DNA of 33,752 bases from Candidatus Woesearchaeota archaeon (lineage in GTDB: Archaea > Nanobdellota > Nanobdellia > Woesearchaeales > JAADFO01), in the NCBI GenBank assembly GCA_016926055.1, contig JAFGPE010000046.1, forward strand, positions 1 to 33,752, written 5' to 3'. Below, in pieces: positions 6,147 to 29,324 of the stretch. The notes under the pieces are model-generated. The model had not been told where the DNA came from and did not search any database. It saw nothing but the letters and a program-made list of their open reading frames with translations. The first letter of the stretch is position 1. Each line of letters opens with the position of its first letter. The translations under genes were made by a program, and so were the position numbers.

Positions 6147-6866
6147 ATGGGACTATTTGGTTTGAAGAAAAAGCCAAAAACAGAAATAGGTTCAGCTGAC
6201 CTGCCTCCACCTGTGCCTCCCGGAGAAGAGCTAGATGGAGATATTCCTGCACCGCCTTCTGATTTTGATTTGAATATGCCGCTGCCACCAGGCTCTGTGG
6301 ACCAAAATAACGACAGCTTTCCTGAACCGCCGGAAATAAATGAAGATCAGCCGTTCGAGATGCCGAGCTTTCCTGAACCGCCGCAGGAAAATATGGATTT
6401 TAGCCTCCCGCCGATGGGCGATGATTCAACATTCTCTCAGGGCAATATGCCTCCCCGCAAAGAGGAACCGATTGCTTCTCCTAAACAGGAACCTGTGCCA
6501 ACTTCACCTCAACCAGCAATAAAACAAAGCTCTGTCCAGCCGAATCGACAAGAACCGGTGCAAGCAAAGCAACCACCAGAGCAGACTCCACAACAAACCG
6601 TTCAGCCGCAAGAAGAGCCGAAACCTGTGGAACAAAAAAGAATTGATTTTTCAAACCCGTTGTTCGTTCCGATAGAGGAATACAAAGAAACTGAAAAGAA
6701 TGTCAATAATGTAAATGCTGATGTAAAAAGAGCAGAGGACAACCTCGAGAGATTAAGCAGCATTGAATCTGAAGGGAGCGTTGTGATGGAGAGAATCACA
6801 AAGAATGCTGATTTCGTCTTGAAGAAATTAAGCATAATCGATAAGAAGCTGTTCAAAAAAGGGTGA
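6147..6866 (+). CDS. Proline-rich low-complexity protein with C-terminal coiled-coil module
   Basis: 239 aa; SD-like GGAGGGGTG upstream. N-terminus MGLFGLKKKPK, repeated [F/L/I/M]PxPP-type motifs, P/Q-rich linker, then LFVPIEEYKE...KKLF. Confidence 0.8.
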   Translation: MGLFGLKKKPKTEIGSADLPPPVPPGEELDGDIPAPPSDFDLNMPLPPGSVDQNNDSFPEPPEINEDQPFEMPSFPEPPQENMDFSLPPMGDDSTFSQGNMPPRKEEPIASPKQEPVPTSPQPAIKQSSVQPNRQEPVQAKQPPEQTPQQTVQPQEEPKPVEQKRIDFSNPLFVPIEEYKETEKNVNNVNADVKRAEDNLERLSSIESEGSVVMERITKNADFVLKKLSIIDKKLFKKG

Positions 6867-6870
6867 TTTC

Positions 6871-7092
6871 ATGAAAGAGTCCCAGTTTTTCGTTAAGATA
6901 AACGAGTTTAAGGAGATATTTGATATTGTCAACACGATAAAAGCCAAGCTGGATGAAGCACACAAGAGCTTCGAGAAGATATATGGCCTAAAAGCTGAGG
7001 AAGAAAAGTTTTTGGAACAGTGGAAGCAAGACATTGACGAGGTTGAAAGAAAAATCGGTTTTGTCGAAGGGGTATTGTTTACCCGGGAATGA
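6871..7092 (+). CDS. Small coiled-coil protein, related module FFVKINEFKE...
   Basis: 73 aa ORF immediately downstream of 6147-6866. It aligns without gaps to the modules of both neighbours. Confidence 0.75.
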   Translation: MKESQFFVKINEFKEIFDIVNTIKAKLDEAHKSFEKIYGLKAEEEKFLEQWKQDIDEVERKIGFVEGVLFTRE

Positions 7093-7099
7093 GGTTTGA

Positions 7100-7498
7100 G
7101 TGATGAAGGAAAAAACAGAGGCAGATTTTTTCGTGGAACTTAAGGATCCTGTTGAGTTGAGGAGAGCTGTACTTGAAGCTTCAAAGAAATCGATAAGGTT
7201 TTTGCAGAATTACGAGAGCATAAAGAAAAACAGGACAGAGAAAAGCGAGGAGATTGAGAGATTAAAGGCCACAATAAAAGAGATAAGTCTCCTTTTCACA
7301 AGACTGAAGGCAGAGCTTCCTAAAGTGAAGGACGTTCTGCCGCCTGAGTTCAAGAAATTCTTCCATTCAAGACCTGTAACTGTAAAAGTCGTAAAGCCGC
7401 CCATTGCCTCGGTTGAAATAAGACCTAGGGAGAAGGAGATAAATAAGCTGGAGCAGGAACTAAAGGACATTGAATCGGAGCTTGAAAGGCTAAGTTAA
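7100..7498 (+). CDS. Coiled-coil protein, related module FFVELKDPVE...
   Basis: 132 aa ORF in the same tight gene string, with an N-terminal module similar to the two preceding proteins. Confidence 0.75.
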   Translation: MMKEKTEADFFVELKDPVELRRAVLEASKKSIRFLQNYESIKKNRTEKSEEIERLKATIKEISLLFTRLKAELPKVKDVLPPEFKKFFHSRPVTVKVVKPPIASVEIRPREKEINKLEQELKDIESELERLS

Positions 7499-7630: not shown

Positions 7631-7794
7631 GCGGGGATGCCGGAGTGGCCAAACGGGATAGATTTCCGACGTCAAGGCGCTAGAAAATCCAAACTCAAGT
7701 TATTGAGTGATGAGGTCCTAAAAGGATCGATGAAATGCTCTATGGGCCATCTATTGGCTTAGTGCCTACGGGGGTTCAAATCCTCCTCCCCGCA
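7631..7794 (+). tRNA. tRNA-Leu (class II), interrupted in the anticodon loop; anticodon not resolved (CAA is a candidate)
   Basis: Acceptor GCGGGGA/TCCCCGC with A73. D-arm CCGGAGTGGCCAAACGG. AC stem ATAGA (7658-7662)/TCTAT (7750-7754). Long variable arm TGGCTTAGTGCCTAC; T-arm GGGGG-TTCAAAT-CCTCC. About 80 nt extra inside the AC loop. Confidence 0.85.
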
Positions 7795-7962: not shown

Positions 7963-8724
7963 ATGAATAGTCAAAAAATAGAAAATAAAGATTTGTTAAT
8001 CAATTCGGAAATTGCTGAACTCTTAGGTGTGTTTATAGGAGATGGCTGGATTGAAAGGGATAAAGACGCACTTTACATAACTGGAAGCCAAACTGAAGAT
8101 AAAGATTATTATGATTATCACCTAGGACCATTATTTTCTAAGCATTTCTCAAAGGTAACTCCTAAGCAATTTGATTATTGGGGAGTTTATGGAATTGTAA
8201 CCTATAAAAAAGAAGCCATTAACAAAGCAATAAACCTCGATTTCCAAGTGGGACGCAAGTCTTTAGTTACAAAAATTCCTCGATACATAATGGATGCAGA
8301 AAATAAAGATATTTTTAAAGCTATTTTAAGGGGTTTATTTGATACAGATGGTTGTTTTTGGTGTGAAAAGTCAAGAGCTAAAACATCTACAAAATGGAAA
8401 AGAACACACAATTATCATCCTGAACTGAGGATTACTTCGTGTTCCAAGATGTTATTAGAGCAAGTTCATTGCTTATTAGACAGACTAGATATTGATTCTA
8501 AGGTTATTCAAAAAAGCAGAAGGGGTTTCAAAAGCGGAAGAAACGTACATGATTCTTACGCTTTGAATATCAGAAAGATTGAGGAAATTGAAAAATGGTT
8601 CAAGATTATTGGAACTAATAACCCCCGACATAAAACAAGATGTGGTGTCTGGAAGAAACTCGGTTATTTGCCATCAAACACAACAATGGAGATGAGGAAA
8701 AAGTTGTTAAACGTTAATAGGTGA
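7963..8724 (+). CDS. LAGLIDADG homing endonuclease-like protein
   Basis: 253 aa with two LAGLIDADG-type motifs: AELLGVFIGDGWI and AILRGLFDTDGCF. Confidence 0.88.
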   Translation: MNSQKIENKDLLINSEIAELLGVFIGDGWIERDKDALYITGSQTEDKDYYDYHLGPLFSKHFSKVTPKQFDYWGVYGIVTYKKEAINKAINLDFQVGRKSLVTKIPRYIMDAENKDIFKAILRGLFDTDGCFWCEKSRAKTSTKWKRTHNYHPELRITSCSKMLLEQVHCLLDRLDIDSKVIQKSRRGFKSGRNVHDSYALNIRKIEEIEKWFKIIGTNNPRHKTRCGVWKKLGYLPSNTTMEMRKKLLNVNR

Positions 8725-8922: not shown

Positions 8923-9025
8923 GCGAGGATGCCGGAGCGGCCAATGACAGAAATGTCGGCCATACGGGCTAGGTTCAGGGCCTAGTGGCTTAGTGCCTAC
9001 GGGGGTTCGAATCCCCTTTCTCGCA
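8923..9025 (+). tRNA. tRNA-Leu(CAG) with predicted 19-nt D-loop intron (8945-8963)
   Basis: Acceptor GCGAGGA/TTCTCGC with A73. AC arm CTAGG-TTCAGGG-CCTAG, anticodon CAG at 8976-8978. Long variable arm; T-loop TTCGAAT. Removing 8945-8963 gives the canonical D-arm CCGGAGCGGCCAAACGGG. Confidence 0.9.
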
Positions 9026-16676: not shown

Positions 16677-17302
16677 GAATAAAAATAGCACCGTCGATAT
16701 TGTCAGCGAATTTTGCCCATCTGCAGGATGATGTAGACAAGATAAGCAATGCAGATGTTCTCCACATTGATGTGATGGATGGCCATTTTGTGAACAACAT
16801 CACCATAGGGCCTGTTGTGATAAAGGACATCAAAACAAATCTGCTTAAAGAGTCACATCTCATGATTCAAAATCCTGGGAAATACATAAAGCCGTTTGTA
16901 GAGGCTGGCTCCCAAAGAATAATCTTTCATGCGGAAACTGTAAAGGATACTGAAGCGCTGATTGAGGAAATAAAGAAGCACAATGTGGAGGTGGGCGTTT
17001 CTTTGAATCCTGACTCGCCACTCTCGATGATAAAGCCCTACCTTGAAAAACTCGACATGGTTCTGCTGATGACTGTCTTCCCGGGATTTGGAGGTCAGAA
17101 ATTTATTGATTCTGTTGTACCGAAGATAAAGGAATTAAGAGGAATCTTTGAGAAAGACATTGAAGTGGATGGCGGGATAAACTTCGAGACAGCGAAAATC
17201 GCAGCAGAGGCAGGAGCCAATCTTCTTGTTGCAGGAAGCTTTGTCTTCAAAAACAAGGAGCATCTGCCTGCAAAAGTGGTGGAAATGCTAAAAAATATCT
17301 AG
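16673..17302 (+). CDS. rpe: Ribulose-phosphate 3-epimerase
   Basis: 209 aa; IAPSILSANFAHL, LHIDVMDGHFVNN, MTVFPGFGGQKFI, EVDGGIN. Confidence 0.94.
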   Translation: MRIKIAPSILSANFAHLQDDVDKISNADVLHIDVMDGHFVNNITIGPVVIKDIKTNLLKESHLMIQNPGKYIKPFVEAGSQRIIFHAETVKDTEALIEEIKKHNVEVGVSLNPDSPLSMIKPYLEKLDMVLLMTVFPGFGGQKFIDSVVPKIKELRGIFEKDIEVDGGINFETAKIAAEAGANLLVAGSFVFKNKEHLPAKVVEMLKNI

Positions 17303-18720
17303 TTTTTCCTGTACTCCCAGATTTCAACTCCCGAAATGCCATACCTTTTCTCAAAGGTTTCGTTGTTGTTGAAAAGGAACAATAATCCCTCTTCTGTATC
17401 CTCCCAGACAAGGCCTTGCTTCATGCTCCTGTCTATAAAAATATACTTGATGAAATATTTGTCAAGAAGGGATTTTGTGCGCTTGAGGTTTCTTGAATAA
17501 TAAATCTGCAGGGTTTCATTATAGGCTGCCTTGTTATGTTCATTATTTCTGCTCAGGGGATCGAAAAGAACCTTGCTCCTTCCCACAGTTTCTATCCAGA
17601 AGCCATTGTTCAAATGAGAGAAAACAAAACCATTCTTGTCAGAGTTTTCAGAGAACCATGCAAGGCTCTGCATAACAGGATAATCTGGCTTTGATTCTGC
17701 AAGCCTCTTTGAATAAGCCACAGCTGAGAACATAATCCCGCAGACAAACAGGATAAGAACAAAGGACTTTATAATACCCAGTTCCCATTTTCTTCTTGAT
17801 GTTTGGATAAAGCCGAATGCCGCAAGAGGCGCAAGACCAAAACAGAGCAGGATGTTAAAATCGGAACTTACAAATGTGCCTAACAACAAAAAGACCGCGA
17901 TAAACGCATAGGAATATCTTATCGCTCTTGAATCAGACTTGAAAAACATTCCTGAAATGGCAAGTATCAGGAAGAAAGGAGAAAATCCTGATTTCCCCCC
18001 GAACTCAGAAATGCTCTCATTAAGATAATTTGAACCTGCAAGAACAGAAGCCGATAAGGGAACATCTGCAGTGGTGTGGAACAACAGGCTTGAAATCAGG
18101 ACAACTGAAATAAAAGCTATGCTTTTTTTTAGCCTCTTGACAGAAATCGAATAAAGAAGAAGAACAAGAACAATCGGCAATACATACGTGAAACCGAATG
18201 GTATTATGAGCAGCGCCAAGAAGAAAGAGAAAATCCTTTTTTCTTTTATGAAGAAATAGAAGCACAACAAATCAAGCAGTATCCAAAGCGAAAGGGATGT
18301 TGTTGTTGTGAAAGTCCAGATAAAAAGAGGCGACAAAATCATGAGAATCGAGGCTATTGTTGCCTCCCTTTTTTTTAATGAAAAATGTTTGAGTATTAGG
18401 ATAAACGTGAATAACGAAGCAATGCCGAAGATAAATGGAAGGATTCTTGCTGAAGCCCCGATACCGAATATTTTGGACGAAAGAAAAAGAAGCACATGAA
18501 ATGGATTGGCGACAGTCTGCCTTGAGCTTAAAACAAGATTGTCCCTGAAAATCAATCCTTTTTCAGCTATTGACTCAGCAACTCTGATGTTATAGTATGG
18601 CTCTGAACCCTGCAATGTGCCGCCGGAGTAAAAAATCCTGAGCAGAAAGACTAAAGAAAGCACAATAACTGCAACAAAAAGGGGAATTAAAAAATCTACC
18701 CTTGATATTTTTTTTCTCAT
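17299..18720 (-). CDS. Multi-pass membrane protein, AglB/STT3-like GT-C family
   Basis: GSEPYYNIRVAE near the N-terminus, many TM segments, C-terminal WFSENSDKNGFVFSHLNNGFWIETVGRSKVLFD. ATG at 18720. Confidence 0.65.
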   Translation of the reverse strand: MRKKISRVDFLIPLFVAVIVLSLVFLLRIFYSGGTLQGSEPYYNIRVAESIAEKGLIFRDNLVLSSRQTVANPFHVLLFLSSKIFGIGASARILPFIFGIASLFTFILILKHFSLKKREATIASILMILSPLFIWTFTTTTSLSLWILLDLLCFYFFIKEKRIFSFFLALLIIPFGFTYVLPIVLVLLLYSISVKRLKKSIAFISVVLISSLLFHTTADVPLSASVLAGSNYLNESISEFGGKSGFSPFFLILAISGMFFKSDSRAIRYSYAFIAVFLLLGTFVSSDFNILLCFGLAPLAAFGFIQTSRRKWELGIIKSFVLILFVCGIMFSAVAYSKRLAESKPDYPVMQSLAWFSENSDKNGFVFSHLNNGFWIETVGRSKVLFDPLSRNNEHNKAAYNETLQIYYSRNLKRTKSLLDKYFIKYIFIDRSMKQGLVWEDTEEGLLFLFNNNETFEKRYGISGVEIWEYRKN

Positions 18721-20234
18721 TCTGACATCGCCACCCTGCACTCAACTTTATATATTAATGGCTCTTCATCGTATACCAGCTTGAAGCAATTGTCGCCTTC
18801 CGATGGAATAAATCTTAATCCAGACTGGCCCAACTCGAACAAGGTATTCTCTGAGAGATATATGTAACCGACATCAAATTTTTGGCAAAGAGATACTGCC
18901 TCAATCTCTGATATTGCTGAAAATATAGTGTTCACGTCCTTGAAGCGCTGCTCAGGATTGTTCGCATAGTTGTAGTTAGAATCCATGACATTCTTTCTCC
19001 CTGCAAGAAAGGAAATCTTATGGCCCTCGCCCGGTGAAGCAAGCACCACTGAACCAGGCTCTGTATTTTCCTTGAGCCAGAGTATTGCCTTTAACTCGTC
19101 CTCCTTTGGCGTGTTAGCCCTGTTCTTAATGAAGCTCAAATCAAGAGAGGGTATGATTGACATCATGAGCATAAGTATGAAGATTAGAACGACAAGGGCG
19201 TTGCCATGCCTCGAGAACTTTGTTTTTTTCAACCAGGTTGCAAAATTCCTGAAGAAATCTGCTGAAAGCACACAAAGAATCGCACCTGCAAGCATAAGGC
19301 CGATTTTGTCCTCAATAATCCTAAACCAGGAAGCAAGGCTTATTGATATGAGAAATCCTATGATTACGAAAACATCTTTTCTTCTTTCCTCGAAAATCCT
19401 TATATATGCCACATGTATCCCGAAAAGAAGAGGTAGTGCACCAATGGAATATATCGCAAAAACGGGGTTGACCCCTGCAAAATATTCAGAAACAAGTTGT
19501 GACGGAACGCTCTTCCAGACAAAAGACGTTCCTTCTGTGAGAAGCGTATTCTTGAAGACGACAAACATCAGCCAGAGGTAAAAGATTAAAGAGAAGAGCG
19601 ATATCTCGTATTCCCTTTTCAGCACCATTTTTCTCTCAAGCTGGCAAAGCAGCAAGTAAAACAGCAGCCCTATTATGAAAACGACAGTAATTGGGCTTAG
19701 AAGAATCAGTAGCAAAAGCACAAATGCAAAATGAGCAGCATATTTCTTGTGGTCGAGAAGCCTTATATAGTAGAAAATCAGCATCAAAGAAAGAGGAACA
19801 AAAAGCGAACTCGAGGAGCCGGAGTTTACTGTTTCGCTCATAAATATGGGGATAAAACCTGCAAGGATAGATGACAGCAGCGAGGCAACTCTGTTCTTAG
19901 TTATCTCATAAGAAAGAACAAAAACCACCACCATAAGCAAGGATGCAAAAATATTGGGCAGCAGCTTCAAAAGAGTGTAAAGCGGGATGAAAAGGCTGAA
20001 GAATGCCAGCACATAATGATACAACGGGAGAAAGATATAGGTTCGGCCACCGTAACTAAGTTCATCAACATACAGGGGAAGGCCTGTTTGCCTTATGTGC
20101 TCGACCTGGCGAAGTATAAAATAAGCATTATCATCATTAAATTCAGAGTACCTAAATGCCATGTTAAACCTTATTCCGAGAACTACTAAGAACAAAGCAG
20201 CCAAACCGATGATGTATTTGTGTTTTTCTTCCAC
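18717..20234 (-). CDS. Multi-pass membrane protein, AglB/STT3-like GT-C family (second copy)
   Basis: 505 aa; FNDDNAYFILRQVEHIRQTGLPLY..GGRTYIFLPLYHY, C-terminal WLKENTEPGSVVLASPGEGHKISFLAGRKNVMD. Confidence 0.65.
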   Translation of the reverse strand: MEEKHKYIIGLAALFLVVLGIRFNMAFRYSEFNDDNAYFILRQVEHIRQTGLPLYVDELSYGGRTYIFLPLYHYVLAFFSLFIPLYTLLKLLPNIFASLLMVVVFVLSYEITKNRVASLLSSILAGFIPIFMSETVNSGSSSSLFVPLSLMLIFYYIRLLDHKKYAAHFAFVLLLLILLSPITVVFIIGLLFYLLLCQLERKMVLKREYEISLFSLIFYLWLMFVVFKNTLLTEGTSFVWKSVPSQLVSEYFAGVNPVFAIYSIGALPLLFGIHVAYIRIFEERRKDVFVIIGFLISISLASWFRIIEDKIGLMLAGAILCVLSADFFRNFATWLKKTKFSRHGNALVVLIFILMLMMSIIPSLDLSFIKNRANTPKEDELKAILWLKENTEPGSVVLASPGEGHKISFLAGRKNVMDSNYNYANNPEQRFKDVNTIFSAISEIEAVSLCQKFDVGYIYLSENTLFELGQSGLRFIPSEGDNCFKLVYDEEPLIYKVECRVAMSE

Positions 20235-28091: not shown

Positions 28092-29324
28092 CTATTCCTT
28101 GTATTCTAGTTGAAATTGTTTTCCGGAAGCGACGTTTCTGTATAAACCGCAGTTATTTTCGGATTTGAGCTCATCAAACTTCTTCTTTGCCAATTCATAA
28201 GTTACATAATAGAATTTTTTTGAATTATTTGTTCCTGGCTCGATGCACACTTCATAAAAGACAGGATAATCATCTGGAATCAAACGGTTCATCATAGGAT
28301 CTAGCTTAATGCCGATCTCCTCAAGTCCATTGTCTCGATAAAATGATGCTATTTCATTTATCTGGCTTGAGCTTTTCAATTCTTCTCTGTGGAAATTATA
28401 AAAGTCTGTTAAAGAAACCTTCATCTCTTCATCTGTTCTCCAAAAAATATAATCGCTACCTAGAAAATCAATAAATAACTTATAAATCGGATCTGAATCA
28501 GAGGTAGCAGTTGGTGCACTAAATTCAACACTATATTTCGGGAACCTTGTCTTATCGCTGACAATTCCTTTTGAATCATATTCAATAATCCTTGCTAAAT
28601 CTCCAAATTCAGAAGTTTTCGATGATATTGGAAACTCCCATATTGAGATTATTACTTTGCCTGTTGAATTGTTTTTCAGATTCAACAAGGCTTCAAAATT
28701 AATGCGCGCAAGGGTGTTATCCTTTTCGTCAATATATGCAAGAGTAGCACTGTTGCAATAATCACCGGTACTTGTATAATCAGTTTTGTGTTTCATATCT
28801 TTAAAAGGTATACTAACCGAATCAGATTCCAGTTTTGAGATCATATTCTCCAGCTCTTCATTTTCAGTCAATATTCCTGTTGGGAAGTTCAGCAATAAGT
28901 TCCTTAAACCTTGTTTATACGAAGTATATGGTTCTGAGATATGTGGGGCAATATCCTTCGGATTATCAAGATCTTGGATCATTTGGATAAGGGACTCCTC
29001 AAACTCTAAATCGTTTGGTTGACCTTGTTTTCTCCTTGTAGCATTCAGATGAATGCAAACATTAAGAAAGAGCTTGTCTTCTAACATTTTTGAAGTTCTG
29101 TTTTGCAGTAAAGCTTTAGTAGCACCTAGGGTGCCTGCGTGACTTAAAACAGGATAATAGTCGGTGTATACCGATACTAAACCTTCAGGATGTACTTTTG
29201 CAAGTTGTATGAGATCCAGAGCTTCGATTGCATCAGATATCGGAACTGAAACAGTTTTTTCCGGATTTGACTGGAACACATATAGGTAATCACTTGATTT
29301 ATTAGTTGTAGTTAAGGCACTCAT
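28092..29324 (-). CDS. Hypothetical protein, no family recognised
   Basis: 410 aa long ORF with TATA-like TTTATAAATAG on the minus strand just upstream. Confidence 0.75.
   Translation of the reverse strand: MSALTTTNKSSDYLYVFQSNPEKTVSVPISDAIEALDLIQLAKVHPEGLVSVYTDYYPVLSHAGTLGATKALLQNRTSKMLEDKLFLNVCIHLNATRRKQGQPNDLEFEESLIQMIQDLDNPKDIAPHISEPYTSYKQGLRNLLLNFPTGILTENEELENMISKLESDSVSIPFKDMKHKTDYTSTGDYCNSATLAYIDEKDNTLARINFEALLNLKNNSTGKVIISIWEFPISSKTSEFGDLARIIEYDSKGIVSDKTRFPKYSVEFSAPTATSDSDPIYKLFIDFLGSDYIFWRTDEEMKVSLTDFYNFHREELKSSSQINEIASFYRDNGLEEIGIKLDPMMNRLIPDDYPVFYEVCIEPGTNNSKKFYYVTYELAKKKFDELKSENNCGLYRNVASGKQFQLEYKE

Follow-up and report, generated by a model that had tools for sequence, protein, structure and literature searches.

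The locus studied here raises the question of whether three short consecutive genes of a Candidatus Woesearchaeota archaeon encode the subunits of a single assembly and, if so, how that assembly is built and how it arose. The genes, hereafter named P1, P2 and P3, lie in a stretch of 33,752 nucleotides (the window), in a genome of 1.62 Mb distributed across 172 contigs. The initial annotation had described them as a cassette built on one module of about 66 amino acids, with products forming one hetero-oligomeric coiled-coil complex. It had also placed the open reading frames within 4-8 nt of each other; these coordinates and the tight packing of the operon were confirmed, 4 nt separating P1 from P2 (6866 to 6871) and 7 nt separating P2 from P3 (7092 to 7100). 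The features of the locus are the following.

6147-6866, + strand: P1 gene, 239 aa; a hydrophobic-basic start, an arm that is acidic, rich in proline and probably disordered, and the C-terminal module.
6147-6179, + strand: P1 N-terminal MGLFGLKKKPK, a conserved hydrophobic-then-basic motif; proposed membrane-binding segment.
6180-6656, + strand: P1 acidic proline-rich arm, probably a disordered tether (18% Pro and 14% Glu in the family).
6657-6860, + strand: P1 module, residues 171-238; hhalign 99.6% to P2, the match spanning 6657-6857.
6871-7092, + strand: P2 gene, 73 aa; the module alone, an FV strand followed by a helix (a long helix in the AlphaFold2 model of an ortholog).
7100-7498, + strand: P3 gene, 132 aa; GTG start codon at 7100, with an ATG at 7103.
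7121-7324, + strand: P3 long helix resembling the module and anchored at FV, at about residues 8-75; supported by profile register, hhalign, covariation with P2 and the AlphaFold2 helix in orthologs.
7325-7429, + strand: P3 linker, mostly basic in the family (net positive in 35 of 41).
7430-7495, + strand: P3 conserved C-terminal helix (LExELxxIExxLxxL), with near-invariant L117, L121, I124, E125 and L128.

P1 is acidic (median net charge -13) and P3 basic (+8). The proline-rich arm of the first protein, pointed out in the initial annotation, and the basic character of the third, whose C-terminus was described there as basic, are family-wide traits. The C-terminal block of P3 is modelled as a helix in one ortholog, with a pLDDT of about 94. 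In most genomes P1 begins with M-G-[FL]-[FL]-x-[FK]-[LK]-K-K-K or a near variant. This MG[FL][FL]...KKK type of start was found in 101 of 135 P1 sequences under a strict ATG pattern and in 175 of 202 under a looser one, many of those failing the strict pattern being GTG or TTG starts with the same residues. We propose, from the type of sequence, that this segment binds the membrane. An amphipathic N-terminal helix was also considered, but the helical moment gives it no support (0.24, versus 0.31 for scrambled sequences). No transmembrane segment was seen on inspection of the P1, P2 and P3 sequences.

Comparison of the proteins showed that the C-terminus of P1 and P2 are clear homologs. Pairwise BLAST of P1 with P2 and of P2 with P3 gave nothing of note. 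A search of the window's genome with P2 recovers P1 at E=2.4e-4, and in several relatives the second of two adjacent matches reaches about 1e-10. Profiles of the P1 module and P2 built from 41 loci aligned over 68 ungapped columns with an hhalign probability of 99.6% and a score of 107, versus 11 +/- 2 for column-shuffled controls.

P3 is probably a distant paralog of the same module, a reading that draws on profile statistics with no strong E-value. With profiles from 41 genomes, its similarity to the modules was no better than that of reversed profiles and stayed at the level of coiled coils. The conclusion drawn at that stage, that P3 is unrelated, was revised once profiles from 182 genomes aligned it: P2 2-69 with P3 6-73 at 69-73%, and P1 3-59 with P3 8-64 at 74-75%, versus 1-31% for reversed-profile controls. 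In an ungapped offset scan that took the composition of the coiled coils themselves as background, the FV-anchored register of P3 ranked first among 45 offsets in both the P1 and P2 comparisons. It ranked first or second of 52 when the FV strand was left out, and came out on top in all 40 disjoint half-samples. With the 182-genome profiles, the register that had been noticed by eye is the best of all offsets.

An alternative, which we consider rather unlikely, is that P1 and P2 are true paralogs within a complex and P3 an unrelated coiled-coil partner, its FV start and helix length being convergent. The nearly full-length alignment of the 182-genome profiles in the predicted register argues against convergence, although the 41-genome profiles fail to separate P3 from reversed controls. 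Taken separately, the two halves of the helix differ: the second half alone gives the identical offset in both comparisons (rank 1 of 67), whereas the first half has no preference for the shared register (ranks 18 and 10 of 66). The lack of a strand at the FV of P3 in the AlphaFold2 models would also fit an unrelated partner. The claim of one module of about 66 residues in all three proteins thus stands for P1 and P2 (99.6%), with P3 as a probable and only remote copy (69-75%, versus 1-31% reversed); likewise, similarity beyond generic coiled-coil composition is evident for the first pair and weaker for P3.

To what extent are the three genes conserved together? With the window sequences as queries, P2 was detected in 107 and P3 in 101 of 118 relatives. 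A profile search detected P3 in 156 of the 194 genomes of a phylum draw, all listed genomes of which belong to the class of the window. A contig scan for relatives with the window P2 alone returned none, and a profile scan of contigs found 98; the named ones are MAGs recorded as Woesearchaeota, Nanoarchaeota, Nanoarchaeia or archaeon, and in one case as Methanosarcinales. In all 206 distinct P3 loci, a sample collected via P2 or P3 matches and so not fully blind, a module gene precedes P3 on the same strand, no more than 1.5 kb away. Two module genes are present in 182 of them and one in 24; joint conservation of the set, an expectation of the initial annotation, was thus observed.

Most of the single-module loci (21 of 24) come from other orders of the class, where a single gene of P1 layout, with the hydrophobic-basic start, the proline-rich arm and the module, precedes P3. 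Among the genomes sampled, the two-module state is specific to the order of the window. In one family of the class (f99), the module is often undetectable. In a tree of 251 modules, a branch with an SH-aLRT of 94 separates the P1 copies from P2 and the single copies, whose side is unresolved. Because the P1 modules fall on one side and other orders have a single armed gene, the data fit one duplication of the module gene in the order of the window. The ancestral state would have been one armed module protein with P3; after the duplication, P1 would have retained the arm and P2 the conserved module.

Physical association of the products was evaluated by direct coupling analysis of 182 trios, with 45 pairing shuffles as control. 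Couplings between P2 and P3 peaked on the antiparallel diagonal i+j=89 with a score of 1.47. The second antiparallel peak scored 0.62 and the highest parallel one 0.88, and none of the 45 shuffles exceeded 0.61. Along this diagonal, 24 coupled pairs join P2 8-74 with P3 81-16, including K26-E61, I37-I52, L27-I62 and E54-R37. P1 and P3 showed an antiparallel peak at 84 with a score of 0.91 (shuffles at most 0.61), in a register similar to that of P2-P3 and mostly between P1 43-68 and P3 14-42. A pseudo-likelihood run with a reduced alphabet again placed the P2-P3 peak at 89 (1.44; shuffles at most 0.86), together with lesser peaks (parallel, 1.2), and P1-P2 couplings were raised without a clear register. 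These parallel diagonals and the raised P1-P2 signal show that covariation is inflated by shared ancestry. By mutual information, diagonals 85 and 91 ranked second and third, behind 118. Random half-samples were noisier, with 89 or its neighbour 88 at the top for P2-P3 in three of eight.

AlphaFold2 was run on two natural loci with in-frame genes, using literal translations in which the stop was read as glycine (fused chains), and packing was judged from pTM and secondary structure. The trio model of one locus (L024; P1 module, P2 and P3) had a pLDDT of 79.5 and a pTM of 0.61. In it, P1 forms a strand and two helices, P2 a strand and a 61-residue helix, and P3 long helices and the C-terminal helix. 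Since P1 and P2 provide the only strands of the model, one each, these should pair together. The pair model of a locus from another order, one with a single module copy (L205), reached a pLDDT of 86.4 and a pTM of 0.70, with helices at 6-70, 101-156 and 196-217; its five models were similarly confident. Taken together, covariation and AlphaFold2 make the antiparallel pairing of P2 and P3 well supported, and the place of P1 in the bundle moderately supported. The proposal that the proteins are subunits of one hetero-oligomeric coiled-coil complex is supported by the antiparallel inter-protein covariation and the models of in-frame fusions; heteromer formation remains a computational prediction. 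It is very improbable that the proteins are charged helices of a generic kind that align by chance and form no specific complex. The Pfam, NCBIfam and PDB matches are indeed generic coiled coils, but strict co-conservation and register-specific covariation contradict such a reading, and the homology of P1 and P2 already refutes it for this pair.

The mechanism that we favour, and hold to be somewhat better than an even bet, is that P1, P2 and P3 are subunits of a single hetero-oligomeric coiled-coil scaffold, made from copies of the module of about 66 residues. P2 and P3 would each contribute one long helix, packed antiparallel over most of their length into a rod. The C-terminal module of P1 would enter the bundle mainly via its second half, as suggested by covariation weaker than that of P2-P3, and the P1-P2 contact is predicted by AlphaFold2 only. 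P1 would act as a tether, possibly to the membrane: its hydrophobic-basic N-terminus may bind the membrane, as proposed from its sequence type, and its acidic proline-rich arm may provide the flexible link. The basic linker and C-terminal helix of P3 could contact a further partner, for which DNA, an acidic surface and the bundle itself are candidates.

At many of the 41 wide loci surveyed in the order of the window, the divergent neighbours encode radical SAM, lamin-tail-domain and wHTH proteins, ScpB (PF04079, E=9e-38) and GyrA, and the downstream neighbours RNase J-like proteins and PCNA. In other orders, the neighbours are TFE (divergent) and AlaRS; in the window itself, they are CarAB and RNase J. 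GyrA, AlaRS and CarAB were named by eye from sequence. This environment hints at information processing, without being specific.

One candidate role is that of a chromosome-segregation or replication accessory, with P1 anchoring the bundle at the membrane and P3 contacting DNA or the SMC/clamp machinery. The basic character of P3 and the ScpB, GyrA, PCNA, RNase J-like and wHTH genes near many of the 41 loci would suit it. However, most of these neighbours are divergent or lie at a distance of several genes, their place is taken by CarAB and RNase J in the window and by TFE and AlaRS in other orders, and core genes are frequent neighbours in small genomes; we regard this role as unlikely. Equally speculative is the broader view of a membrane-tethered, duplicated-module scaffold that, in Nanobdellota (Nanoarchaeota/Woesearchaeota), connects the membrane with the chromosome or with replication machinery; it would be phylum-specific, near-universal there and without homolog elsewhere, the look beyond the phylum being limited to one pattern-based scan. 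Slightly more doubtful still is a role as accessory of the FtsZ/SepF division ring, with P1 as a second membrane tether. The near-universal distribution suits a core process and P1 has a SepF-type layout (hydrophobic-basic start, linker, small oligomerising module), but every one of 111 genomes has SepF, making a replacement unnecessary, and no link to ftsZ or sepF was found among the annotated conserved neighbours. For the same reason, P1 as a substitute for a missing SepF was rejected, a separate SepF gene being present in all 111. The membrane-tethered scaffold remains the favoured mechanism, and it might act in segregation, replication or division.

Several other features of these neighbourhoods and of the window were recorded. 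Neighbouring ScpB and GyrA genes often occur near the trio (cluster 3, about 23 loci, e.g., L091:10262-11080), although SMC complexes of archaea reportedly lack ScpB (PMC7055376). A conserved protein of about 200 aa with a weak C-terminal winged-helix match (cluster 2, 25 loci; L062:12471-13085) lies beside ScpB in most of its loci and, at two loci from other orders, close to the module gene. A lamin tail domain protein of about 400-800 aa (cluster 5, 22 loci; e.g., L086:5094-6947) lies divergently near the trio. In the window, two tRNA genes (7631-7794 and 8923-9025; Rfam, E ~8e-6), missed by ARAGORN under bacterial settings, carry inserts resembling archaeal introns and flank a LAGLIDADG homing-endonuclease-like ORF (7963-8724; PF14528, E=7e-11). 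The minus strand holds two adjacent multi-pass membrane-like ORFs at 17299-20234 (17299-18741, without Pfam match, and 18717-20234) and a 410-aa ORF without Pfam match (28092-29324).

Because most of the genomes sampled from this phylum of small and largely uncultured archaea contain the set, it is a candidate core component of their cell biology. In addition, the series from one armed module with P3 to an armed copy and a rod copy may illustrate how a coiled-coil assembly encoded by two genes gains a third subunit.

As far as libraries and open papers were searched, the trio represents an undescribed family. No match above cut-off was obtained in Pfam and NCBIfam for P1, P2 or P3, profiles of P2 and P3 gave nothing convincing against solved structures, and Foldseek with both AlphaFold2 models returned nothing in the PDB at E<=0.001, only generic coiled coils. 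P3 was also considered as DUF4200, SMC, Rad50 or ASRP, and these matches were sub-threshold and generic. No description of the trio was found in a literature search of open papers.

Several known systems nevertheless invite comparison. Prefoldin (PF01920, PF02996) is likewise a small archaeal helical hetero-oligomer, but the P3 matches are sub-threshold (E of 0.04 and 0.6; 14.2 and 10.5 bits, versus cut-offs of 27.6 and 23.2), and its beta-hairpins form a double beta-barrel platform, whereas the AlphaFold2 models of the trio contain no beta-hairpin. The archaellum accessory FlaC (PF05377) is also a small archaeal coiled-coil protein; the FlaC_arch match lies below cut-off (E=0.84, 10.5 bits versus 27.8), and no archaellum genes were recognised among the conserved trio neighbours examined. 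ESCRT-III/PspA/Vipp1 proteins form helical membrane-associated assemblies, as proposed for the trio, but no Pfam match was obtained and the Foldseek hit to 6zvs reached only E=1.2.

SepF consists of a short hydrophobic-basic N-terminus, a linker and a small C-terminal oligomerising module, and its domain has an alpha/beta fold. P1 resembles it in this layout, whereas the modules of the trio are helical in the AlphaFold2 models and PF04472 was not among the Pfam matches of P1-P3. SepF (PF04472) is the membrane anchor of archaeal FtsZ (PMC8178401, PMC8187382). With SNAREs, no homology was found, and no transmembrane anchors were seen in the trio sequences. The SNARE core is a parallel bundle of several small proteins, one of which gives two helices, with a link to the membrane. 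The trio would similarly bring several small proteins into one helical bundle with a proposed membrane link, its P2-P3 couplings being antiparallel where the SNARE core is parallel.
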